64,000 bases of DNA from Erysipelotrichaceae bacterium (GTDB taxonomy: Bacteria > Bacillota_I > Bacilli_A > Erysipelotrichales > Erysipelotrichaceae), in assembly GCA_015058955.1 (NCBI GenBank), contig SVBJ01000005.1, forward strand, positions 1 to 64,000. Direction: 5' to 3'. Shown piece after piece: positions 13,753 through 17,941 of this stretch; the stretch's first letter is position 1; each line of letters begins with the position of its first letter. The notes under the pieces are model-generated. The model was given only the letters and a program-made list of their open reading frames with translations, was not told the DNA's origin and did no database searches. A program made the position numbers and the translations under genes.

Positions 13753-14466
13753 ATGAAAAAACTTTTAATCGCATTATTAGCACTGACAATGTTATTCAGC
13801 TTCGCTGGATGCAAGAAGGAAGATCCTAATAAAAAGAGCGAAGGCGTCATGACCTATGCTGAATTCGCTGCTGCCAAGGATGATACAGAAGTAACTGTTG
13901 AAACCTATGTACAGGCCAAGCAGAGCTGGTGGGACAACGCCGGTACTTTCTATACTCAGGATGGAGAAGGCGGATATTTCCTGTATGGAATGCCTTGTTC
14001 TGAGGAAGAGTACAATAAGCTGACACCTGGTACCAAGATCAGAGTAAAGGGTCAGAAGTCAACATGGGCCGGTGAAGTTGAAATCATCGATGCTACATAT
14101 GAGATCCTGGATGGCAAGTATGTTGCCAAGCCATTGGATGTTACCAGTCTGTTAGGCACCGAAAAGCTGGAAGAAAAGATGAACCTGTTTATTTCCATGA
14201 AGGGACTGACAGTCAAGGATTACGGCAATGGCAAGGCATTCGAATACAAGAATGCTGAAAACAAGACCGATGACCTCTATGTCAAGTTCGATAAGGACGG
14301 CAAGGAATATGAATTCTGCGTTGAATTCTACCTCTGCAATAATGACACTGATGTATACAAGGCTGTAGAAGGCTTAAAGATCGGTGACGTTGTTGACATC
14401 GAAGGCTTCCTGTACTGGTACAACGTACCTAACGTCCACATGACAAAGGTTACACCTTCCAAGTAG
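13753..14466 (+). CDS. Small lipoprotein with OB-fold-like domains
   Basis: A 237-residue exported protein. The signal peptide ends in the lipobox FAGC, so the cysteine at residue 20 is lipidated and the protein faces outward. The first domain (~30-115: DTEVTVETYVQAKQSWWDN..., TKIRVKGQKSTW..., VEIIDATYEIL) has the strand pattern of bacterial OB folds, and a second similar domain ends with GDVVDIEGFLYWYNVPNVHMT. Such proteins are often annotated only as OB-fold lipoproteins. GAAGGAGAGG precedes the ATG; the gene has its own promoter and terminator. Ligand and role are unknown. Confidence 0.75.
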   Translation: MKKLLIALLALTMLFSFAGCKKEDPNKKSEGVMTYAEFAAAKDDTEVTVETYVQAKQSWWDNAGTFYTQDGEGGYFLYGMPCSEEEYNKLTPGTKIRVKGQKSTWAGEVEIIDATYEILDGKYVAKPLDVTSLLGTEKLEEKMNLFISMKGLTVKDYGNGKAFEYKNAENKTDDLYVKFDKDGKEYEFCVEFYLCNNDTDVYKAVEGLKIGDVVDIEGFLYWYNVPNVHMTKVTPSK

Positions 14467-14549: not shown

Positions 14550-14579
14550 TTGTCTATGATATTGAATAAAATATATAAT
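14550..14579 (+). promoter_or_regulatory. Promoter of the lipoprotein aminotransferase gene
   Basis: TTGTCT (14550-14555), an 18-bp spacer and TATAAT (14574-14579). Confidence 0.6.
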
Positions 14580-14607
14580 AAAAAAGGTAAAAAAAGGAGA
14601 CTAATAT

Positions 14608-16083
14608 ATGAAACCAACATGCAGAAAACTGTTAAGCATTATACTGGCAGTATTAACATGCTGTACCTTGATTGCAGGCTGTACAAAACCTGTTGATCCA
14701 CAGCCGACCCCAACCCCGGAACCGACTCCTGAGCCAACGCCTGAAGAAGTAGTCTATACCATTGACAACATCCGTAATTATGTTGTCGGTGTTGATGAGA
14801 ATGTTGAACTGCCTGACGGAACCAAGCAGCCGCTGATCAACTTTGACAATGCTGCCACGACACCATCTCTGGTTCCTGTCATGGACAAGGTCGATACTGA
14901 AATGAAGATGTACGGTTCAATCGGACGCGGCTTCTCTCAGAAGTCAAACCACTCAACCGACATTTACAATGAAACCCGTGATACGGTCCTGAAGTTCCTC
15001 AATGCTGATCCGGATGTCTATACCTGTTTCTATGTAAACAGCACTACTGACGGTCTCAACAAGCTGGCCAGTGCCCTGGTTGAAAGTGAAGATGACCTGA
15101 TTCTGGCAACCCGTATTGAACACCATGCCAATGACCTGTCATGGCGTGAACGCTGCAAGGTGATCTATGCAGAAGTTGATGAGCAGGGACGTGTCATTTA
15201 CGAAGACATTGAAAGACTGTTAACGGAAAACGAAGGCAAGGTAAAGTATGTAACAATTACCGCAGCTTCCAACGTTACCGGCTATGTAACAGACGTACAC
15301 AGAGTAGCCAAGATGGCCCATGCCCATGGTGCCAGAATCATTGTTGACGGTGCTCAGATCGTTGCTCACCGTGAATTCTCAATGAAAGGTGCAACACCTG
15401 ATGAAGATATTGACTTCTTCGTCTTCTCTGCTCATAAGATGTATTCACCTTATGGTGGCGGTGCTGTTGTAGGTCGTTGGGAAGATCTGGTTCAGCACAT
15501 GCCTGAATTCTATGGCGGCGGTATTGTCAAGCTGGTCAGAGACTATGACGTAGTTTACAAGAGTGCTCCTGAAGTCTACGAAGCCGGTTCACCGAATTAT
15601 GCCGGTGTAGTAGGCATGGCTGAAGCCATGAGAGTTCTGAAGGAAGTTGGCTTTGATGCCATTTCCGAACATGAAAAGGTCCTCAACCGCAGACTTATCG
15701 AAGGTCTGAAGAAGTTTGACAATGTCATCATCTATGGTGACTGTGAAAACATTGATGACCGTGTTGGTGTGGTAACCTTCAACTTTGAAGACATCAACTC
15801 CTATGTTCTGGCACAGCAGCTGTCCAATACCGGAGCAGTAGCTACCCGCCGCGGTGCCTTCTGCGCTCATCCATATGTATGGCGCATGATGGGTATTTCT
15901 GACGAAGAAGCAGCCAACTTTGAAAACTGCATGGACAGAAATACTCCGGGCATGATCCGTGTCAGCTTCGGCATTTACAACAACGAAGCAGAAGTAGACA
16001 AGTTCCTGGAGATCCTGGGAGGCATTCTTGAAGAATCCAGACAGGCAACTCTGCTGGATGCTGAGGCAATTCCTGAATATTAG
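14608..16083 (+). CDS. Lipoprotein-anchored class V aminotransferase / cysteine-desulfurase-like enzyme
   Basis: A 491-residue protein with a clear lipoprotein signal (LIAGC, lipidated Cys25) and a Pro/Thr/Glu linker (~29-47), followed by a full PLP-dependent fold type I domain. Landmarks: INFDNAATT (~77-85), HHAND, the PLP aspartate in IIVDGAQ, the Schiff-base lysine K277 in FSAHKMY, and C419 in TRRGAFCAHPYV, the place of the catalytic cysteine in SufS/CsdA-type desulfurases. These enzymes are normally cytoplasmic and need PLP, so an outward-facing copy is unexpected. AAAGGAG lies 7 nt before the ATG. It stands alone between two terminators, with no suf or isc genes nearby. Cysteine desulfurase, selenocysteine lyase or another PLP activity remain possible. 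Confidence 0.85.
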   Translation: MKPTCRKLLSIILAVLTCCTLIAGCTKPVDPQPTPTPEPTPEPTPEEVVYTIDNIRNYVVGVDENVELPDGTKQPLINFDNAATTPSLVPVMDKVDTEMKMYGSIGRGFSQKSNHSTDIYNETRDTVLKFLNADPDVYTCFYVNSTTDGLNKLASALVESEDDLILATRIEHHANDLSWRERCKVIYAEVDEQGRVIYEDIERLLTENEGKVKYVTITAASNVTGYVTDVHRVAKMAHAHGARIIVDGAQIVAHREFSMKGATPDEDIDFFVFSAHKMYSPYGGGAVVGRWEDLVQHMPEFYGGGIVKLVRDYDVVYKSAPEVYEAGSPNYAGVVGMAEAMRVLKEVGFDAISEHEKVLNRRLIEGLKKFDNVIIYGDCENIDDRVGVVTFNFEDINSYVLAQQLSNTGAVATRRGAFCAHPYVWRMMGISDEEAANFENCMDRNTPGMIRVSFGIYNNEAEVDKFLEILGGILEESRQATLLDAEAIPEY

Positions 16084-16089
16084 AAAATT

Positions 16090-16111
16090 AGCGGAGCAAT
16101 CCGCTTTTTTT
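16090..16111 (+). terminator. Terminator after the PLP lipoprotein gene
   Basis: AGCGGA (16090-16095), loop GCAA, TCCGCT (16100-16105), then T-run. Confidence 0.8.
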
Positions 16112-17086: not shown

Positions 17087-17941
17087 ATGAAAACAGGATT
17101 AATAATGGAAGGCGGAGCCATGCGCGGCCTGTTCACCTGCGGAGTAATTGATGTCTTCATGGAGAATGGCATTGATTTTAACGGTGCAGCCGGCATATCG
17201 GCAGGTGCGGTGTTTGGCTGTAACATCAAGTCTAAACAGATTGGCAGACCACTGAGATACAACACTACCTACTGTAATGATCCAAGATACTGTTCAGTAA
17301 GGTCACTGATCAAAACCGGAGACATGTACGGTGCAGATTTCTGTTACCGTCAGATCATGCACTTACTTGATCCTTTTGATACGGAAACATTCAGAGATAA
17401 TCCAATGGAATTCTATGTGGGGGCAACGGACATTGAAAGCGGCAAATGCGTCTATCACAAATGCCATGACGGTCTGGATGAGGACACTCTGTGGTTCAGG
17501 GCATCAGCTTCCATGCCCCTGGTATCAAGACCGGTGAAAATAGGAGGGCACTTATATCTTGACGGAGGCATGACTGATTCAATTCCATATGAGATCATGC
17601 TGAAAAACGGCTATGACCGCAATGTTGTCATCCTGACACAGCCTGAAGGATTCATTAAGCCTAAAAACAAACTGATTCCTTTGTTTAAGCTGAGATACAG
17701 AAAGTATCCGAAAATAGCGAAGGTAATGAGTGAAAGACACACACGTTACAATCAGCAGGTTCAGAAAGTAGAACATGACGTGAAGAAAGGAAAGGCCTTC
17801 ATAATCAGACCGGCTGAAAGTCTGAACATCGGCAGAGTGGAAAAGGATCCGGAAGAACTCAGACGAGTTTACGAAATTGGCAGACAGACAGCCCTGAAGC
17901 AGCTGGATGCCATAAGGGAATTTCTGACTGAAAAGGAATGA
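17087..17941 (+). CDS. Patatin-like phospholipase / serine hydrolase (RssA-like)
   Basis: A 284-residue cytoplasmic lipid acyl hydrolase. The oxyanion stretch GGAMRGL (~9-15) and nucleophile elbow GISAG (~37-41) form half of the Ser-Asp dyad, and LDGGM (~160) supplies the Asp. The size and order match bacterial patatin proteins of the RssA/YchK group, which act on phospholipids or acyl esters. The start codon sits 6 nt after an extended -10 box with no ribosome binding site, pointing to a leaderless mRNA. The downstream Cys-rich gene overlaps or abuts its stop and is probably co-transcribed. Confidence 0.88.
   Translation: MKTGLIMEGGAMRGLFTCGVIDVFMENGIDFNGAAGISAGAVFGCNIKSKQIGRPLRYNTTYCNDPRYCSVRSLIKTGDMYGADFCYRQIMHLLDPFDTETFRDNPMEFYVGATDIESGKCVYHKCHDGLDEDTLWFRASASMPLVSRPVKIGGHLYLDGGMTDSIPYEIMLKNGYDRNVVILTQPEGFIKPKNKLIPLFKLRYRKYPKIAKVMSERHTRYNQQVQKVEHDVKKGKAFIIRPAESLNIGRVEKDPEELRRVYEIGRQTALKQLDAIREFLTEKE

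Follow-up and report, generated by a model that had tools for sequence, protein, structure and literature searches.

Comparison with described class V PLP enzymes

Textbooks place sulfur-mobilising PLP enzymes in the cytosol, where partner proteins guard the persulfide. PvdN, by comparison, is a soluble periplasmic protein and not a lipoprotein. PvdN is a class V PLP enzyme of fold type I that is active outside the cytoplasm (PMC7497351), which provides exported enzymes of this class with a precedent and means that the general statement of the initial annotation, which confines the action of sulfur-mobilising enzymes to the cytoplasm, does not hold without qualification. PvdN is exported by Tat and acts on a siderophore, in pyoverdine maturation, differing in both respects from the protein described here. 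Also, the selenocysteine lyase SclA has the same class V fold and a similar predicted chemistry. Searching the open-access literature, we have found no published description of an exported family of cysteine desulfurases, and the clade reported here, lipid-anchored or Tat-exported, with SufS-type catalytic residues and with signals swapped across phyla, appears to be new.

The protein under study is encoded in a stretch of 64,000 nucleotides (the window) from an Erysipelotrichaceae draft genome of 1.78 Mb in 37 contigs. Its best match in the PDB, by sequence as well as by fold, is SufS (B. subtilis, PDB 5xt5, and E. coli), with 30–34% identity in the tree alignment and with the fold, the PLP lysine, the catalytic cysteine, and the PLP-contact and both active-site arginine positions in common. 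Scored against curated families, it reaches 280 bits for SufS (TIGR01979, far under the cut-off of 475.1), which is still its best curated match, 120 bits for SclA (NF040779, cut-off 525) and 29.1 bits for PvdN (NF051467, cut-off 650), and it lies below the cut-offs of all curated desulfurases. The residues that define SufS are present (PLP Lys, catalytic Cys, the active-site Arg pair and the PLP-contact Asp, Gln and His), except that all exported members have Gly for the N-[VI]-H-R-G histidine, which in E. coli is H55 and lies at the SufE interface. Unlike the cytosolic SufS, encoded in a suf cluster with SufE or SufU, the window protein has a lipobox and no suf genes adjoin its gene; it further departs from SufS in having GAFC for GHHC and an insert of ~16–17 residues after the Cys loop. 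The exported clade as a whole is set apart from SufS by its lipobox or Tat signal, by the lack of a suf context and, in its core, by a C183/C441 pair and a C-terminal Tyr or Phe. As to the Tat signal of PvdN, the window protein carries a Sec-type signal in a genome without TatC, and Tat signals are found only in its Coriobacteriia relatives. The term cysteine-desulfurase-like, under which the protein had been annotated, is thus sustained by the fold and the catalytic residues and limited by the score and by the missing His55 equivalent, the substrate being predicted by homology.

Gene and domain organization

The open reading frame (14608–16083; this and all features below are on the forward strand) starts with ATG and encodes 491 residues. 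An AGGAG ribosome-binding site, read from the sequence at 14595–14599, lies 8 bases 5' of the ATG, and just upstream of the gene a consensus scan returned a candidate sigma-70-like promoter (TTGTCT-18-TATAAT, 14550–14579), a weak one considering that the scan found 3 such elements versus 3.0 expected in shuffled sequences. Residues 1–24 (MKPTCRKLLSIILAVLTCCTLIAG, 14608–14679) constitute a predicted Sec-type signal peptide, as judged from a PROSITE-style lipoprotein rule and from the absence of TatC in the genome, and are followed by the predicted lipidation site C25 of the lipobox LIAG-C25 (14680–14682). This cysteine is invariant in 25/25 aligned members, in which the catalytic domain is highly conserved and the Pro/Thr/Glu linker (residues 26–50, 14683–14757, delimited from the alignment) is so variable that its length may be tens of residues apart between family members.

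The remainder of the protein (residues 51–491, 14758–16080) is a class V aminotransferase domain, cysteine-desulfurase-like and of PLP fold type I, as assigned by Pfam, AlphaFold2 and Foldseek. Residues 77–466 match Aminotran_5 (PF00266) with an E-value of 3.9e-79 and 266.7 bits, versus a gathering score of 21.5, and the domain is complete since the match covers profile positions 1–371 of 371. The AlphaFold2 model has a pLDDT of 80.7 and a pTM of 0.79, the linker and residues 304–328 being modelled with low confidence, and its best Foldseek matches are B. subtilis SufS (TMt ~0.82). The anatomy initially proposed for this gene (lipobox, Pro/Thr linker, complete class V aminotransferase domain, K277 and C419) is therefore confirmed in all its elements.

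Directly after the stop codon, a terminator-like hairpin (AGCGGAGCAATCCGCT) with a T-run (16090–16105) makes the gene look like its own transcription unit, the scan for intrinsic terminators having found 2 versus 1.6 expected. The stretch from the signal to the fold has a single in-frame start codon, M92, and this one is already within the domain, so that a cytosolic isoform produced by internal initiation is unlikely.

Export signals within the family

The lipoprotein rule, which we applied as a regular expression version of the PROSITE rule, fits 37/40 exported family members and 0/44 signal-less relatives, its background being 14/487 among the ORFs of the same loci and 4/212 among those of the sister loci. 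In the window protein the cysteine falls at position 25, the rule allowing 15–35, and the n-region is basic. All relatives with a readable N-terminus have an export signal, which is a Sec-type lipobox in Bacillota and a Tat-type signal, usually with a lipobox, in Coriobacteriia. Among the latter, Tat motif and lipobox are DRRSAL and AAC in L062, SRREFL and TAC in L115, TRRDAL and GAC in L116, and TRRSFL and SGC in L118; L114 (genome G882) has the Tat motif DRRSAV without a lipobox cysteine, and its sequence suggests that it has seemingly lost the lipid anchor and kept export. The secretion machinery of the hosts agrees with these signals, as TatC is encoded in 5/5 tested genomes with Tat-signal proteins and in 1/8 genomes with Sec-type lipobox proteins, the genome of the window being among those without it. 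The fact that different signals, matched to the host, precede a nearly unchanging domain is the strongest evidence that the outside location is the selected trait.

The lipobox is thus present in homologues from other genomes and, together with the Tat signals in Coriobacteriia and the single change of the export label on the tree (see below), lends strong support to the outward-facing, lipid-anchored protein of the initial annotation. On these grounds the enzyme is almost certainly exported and predicted to reside outside the membrane.

Active-site and clade-specific residues

We have mapped the active site on the SufS alignment, correcting for an offset of 3 residues in the numbering of the PDB chain. 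K277 in SAHKM (15436–15438) corresponds to the PLP Schiff-base lysine (B. subtilis SufS K224), and C419 in RRGAFCAHP (15862–15864) to the catalytic-type cysteine (C361 in B. subtilis, C364 in E. coli). R414 (15847–15849) is equivalent to R359 of E. coli SufS (R356 in B. subtilis), R451 (15958–15960) to the second active-site arginine (B. subtilis R376) and H172, the first of the pair H172-H173 (15121–15126), to the active-site histidine (B. subtilis H121). All of these, i.e. K277, C419, H172, R414 and R451, as well as N222, D247, Q250 and H276, occur throughout all groups, whether exported or not, as does S274, apart from a Thr in one signal-less relative.

A distinct situation is found at G106 (14923–14925), which takes the position of E. 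coli SufS H55 and is Gly in 40/40 exported proteins, versus His in 13/14 SufS. In a study of the SufS-SufE complex (PMC11408855), an AlphaFold model puts SufE R119 against H55, and the loop of the adjacent R56 takes part in the crystal contacts. The loss of H55 would therefore suit an enzyme that works without a partner of the SufE type, and a different substrate could explain it as well. In fact, Gly106 is present in 8/8 rows of the signal-less Lachnospirales group A as well, which indicates that it does not depend on export; a changed substrate pocket may just as well be the reason for it. R180 is Arg in all exported rows, and R415 is specific to the exported core.

The insert relative to SufS spans approximately 15889–15942 and contains C441 (15928–15930), which, like C183 (15154–15156), is found in 29/29 core exported proteins. 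The three deep exported rows have no C183, and those in which the stretch is present have no C441 either; no other group has Cys at the C441 position. This joint pattern hints at a putative disulfide between C183 and C441, possibly a stabilising one. In one locus (L065:7134–8567, with the same protein as L012), ~16 residues after the catalytic-Cys loop are missing, the C441 position included, which is either a deletion or an assembly artefact. The C-terminal residue, Tyr491 (16078–16080), is Tyr or Phe at the end of every core family member in spite of the variation in tail length, which does not hold for the three deep or partial Coriobacteriia rows.

Phylogeny and selection

The exported clade has its closest relatives in a signal-less class V family (L164–L183, L133–L148 and L069), marked by FCAHP or FCAQP and retrieved by order and class searches from Lachnospirales (42/246 genomes with a match) and Actinomycetota, these names being the lineage of the record that anchored each search. 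Lachnospirales group A has Gly106, F418 and mostly R180 in common with the exported clade; the signal-less family has neither a signal peptide nor the C183/C441 pair nor a consistent aromatic residue at the C-terminus, and looks cytosolic. In Lachnospirales (L164–L183), the FCAHP/FCAQP protein is encoded by a single gene without conserved neighbours in many of the 42/246 matching genomes. L069 (6055–7383, Methylobacterium aquaticum plasmid pMaqPC1), also signal-less and automatically named 'aminotransferase class V-fold PLP-dependent enzyme', lies among genes of metal handling, which encode CusA/CzcA efflux, a copper-binding protein, DUF411 and a P-type ATPase.

In a quick maximum-likelihood tree with long branches, which includes the Lachnospirales sister rows and 14 SufS rows, the exported proteins come together in a single clade (SH-aLRT 88) and the export label requires one change of state; with this support and these branch lengths, a single origin of the clade is likely rather than proven. 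The clade adjoins Lachnospirales group A (49–54% identity to the window protein), further signal-less rows lie outside both, and a fully supported branch sets all 14 SufS rows apart. The Tat proteins L062 and L114, both from Coriobacteriia, sit within the Bacillota part of the tree, which suggests transfer accompanied by signal replacement, and three other Coriobacteriia rows are the deepest of the exported ones. A tree built without the Lachnospirales sisters had suggested that the Tat-lipobox proteins are simply basal, a view superseded by the tree that includes them. Judging from sequence relationships, the clade likely arose from a signal-less SufS-like family by gain of an export signal, and would then have been passed between Bacillota and Coriobacteriia, its signal suited to each host.

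Codon comparisons separate the two parts of the protein. Within the domain, 10/10 comparisons show a majority of synonymous differences, with third positions the most variable (for example, 136 synonymous versus 64 non-synonymous codon differences between the window domain and L036), and in the N-terminal 50 residues the changes are mostly non-synonymous. This codon pattern indicates that the enzyme domain is under purifying selection, and that the tag region is free to drift provided that its function as a tag holds.

Proposed function and alternative explanations

We propose a surface-tethered cysteine desulfurase or C-S(Se) lyase-like enzyme, independent of partners and encoded in its own transcription unit, which would act outside the membrane, and we give this assignment an even chance. 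Sec would carry the protein across the membrane, Lgt and Lsp are predicted to lipidate C25, and the flexible linker would tether the domain outside, where PLP is presumed, from the invariant residues, to bind at K277. By homology with SufS, attack on cysteine, or on a substrate of the cystine or selenocysteine type, would yield alanine and a persulfide on C419 which, with no SufE or SufU partner outside, small thiols may discharge as sulfide. Lipidation, the loading of PLP outside, cysteine as substrate and sulfide as product are all put forward here as predictions.

The supply of the cofactor speaks against this proposal. Sec exports proteins unfolded, so that PLP must be found outside, and Tat is the route for folded cofactor-bearing proteins, which in Coriobacteriia could export the enzyme already loaded with PLP. 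Carriers encode PdxJ in 0/12 genomes and PdxS in 1/12 (G898 only), both de novo PLP routes being absent from G000, G007, G463–G469, G882 and G849, which suggests that they are B6 auxotrophs dependent on external vitamin B6. The presence of B6 in their surroundings is plausible, and it does not follow from it that PLP itself reaches the apo-enzyme. A wider picture, which we offer tentatively and hold at somewhat below even, is that of surface desulfurases or C-S(Se) lyases of gut anaerobes, mostly from ruminants, that are loaded after Sec export with scavenged B6, perform SufS-type persulfide chemistry without SufE or SufU, may be held by a C183-C441 disulfide, and release sulfide or persulfide to the gut.

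The reading that competes most seriously with this proposal is an exported PLP enzyme that has this fold but catalyses another reaction, for example as a C-S lyase on cysteine S-conjugates, a cysteine-sulfinate desulfinase, or a decarboxylase or transaminase on another amine, in which the Cys loop was kept and the pocket changed. This is a real possibility, though well short of even, and several of the above features agree with it, namely Gly at the His55 position in 40/40 exported proteins, GAFC versus the GHHC of SufS, the core-specific R415, the ~16–17 residues inserted after C419 and scores below every curated desulfurase cut-off. Also, PvdN is an example of an exported class V enzyme with unrelated chemistry (PMC7497351). 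However, all catalytic residues of SufS, the cysteine and both arginines included, are kept, which is difficult to reconcile with a loss of the thiol chemistry. An exported protein that is no longer a PLP enzyme, i.e. an apo-protein with an adhesin, binding or moonlighting role, would agree with delivery by Sec in an unfolded, cofactor-free state and with a supply of PLP outside that is not assured. We consider it improbable, as no PLP or substrate contact varies, purifying selection on the domain is strong and Coriobacteriia use Tat, which transports folded, cofactor-bearing proteins.

Two further explanations are both very improbable. The signal could be an annotation or MAG artefact on a cytosolic cysteine desulfurase, considering that the closest signal-less relatives look cytosolic and that the genome is a draft in 37 contigs. 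This is largely refuted by signals that recur across several lineages, in genomes assembled independently of one another, with their own ribosome site and divergent sequence, by the Tat-type signal of Coriobacteriia that possess TatC, and by the lack of an alternative start between signal and fold. Alternatively, the gene could be an ordinary SufS paralogue for Fe-S assembly, for which TIGR01979 as best curated match and SufS as best PDB and fold match would speak, but 280 bits versus 475, a separate clade beyond a fully supported branch, the absence of a suf operon, export and the loss of the SufE-contact His all argue against it. In favour of the proposed assignment, the host genome has a separate SufS-type gene (35% identity over residues 73–438) and a weaker desulfurase-type match, by which the cytosolic role is already covered.

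If the proposed surface desulfurase or lyase is correct, a clade of such enzymes has relocated to the outside and remained there in two phyla, exported by whichever route the host machinery provides, and cysteine-type substrates would be processed at the surface of gut bacteria, which bears on the source of gut sulfide, on the external use of PLP by B6-auxotrophic bacteria and on the way in which a SufS-like enzyme could dispense with SufE or SufU. A concrete protein to assay is now at hand.

Distribution and genomic context

Erysipelotrichaceae, Clostridia and Coriobacteriia all contain relatives at ~66–98% identity, mostly in MAGs from the ruminant gut. Among 118 genomes searched, 7 relatives have high-identity matches (78–98%), the next-best matches being SufS-like and at ≤39% identity. 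A scan of ~85,000 species genomes returned 32 loci, nearly all from MAGs, in which the close relatives are labelled Erysipelotrichaceae. Nine of the record titles mention the gut of goat, sheep, roe deer or water buffalo, and many of the other loci belong to the RUG series, which we take to be rumen genomes. A carrier record without a MAG label is Ruminococcaceae bacterium YRB3002 (L067). The search for viral carriage gave only one weak match (29% identity over 81 residues), and that for plasmid carriage only distant relatives (<60% identity).

Genomic context gives no functional clue. Among the clustered neighbours of 47 loci and of 20 signal-less sister loci there is no recurring operon and no sulfur gene that recurs beside the gene; no Rfam family was found within the window, and reading the upstream regions revealed no obvious shared element. 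A MATE transporter recurs near the gene in a few relatives only. The upstream gene in the window (13753–14466) encodes a 237-residue lipoprotein with weak OB-fold similarity (0.00064, under the Pfam cut-off) and adjoins the enzyme gene in the same-genus genome G003 too (L013/L066). Further downstream, 17087–17941 encodes a patatin-like phospholipase with a DUF6363 tail, and the segment 48001–56000, with a GC content of ~0.35–0.41 versus 0.44–0.47 in most of the window, was possibly acquired.
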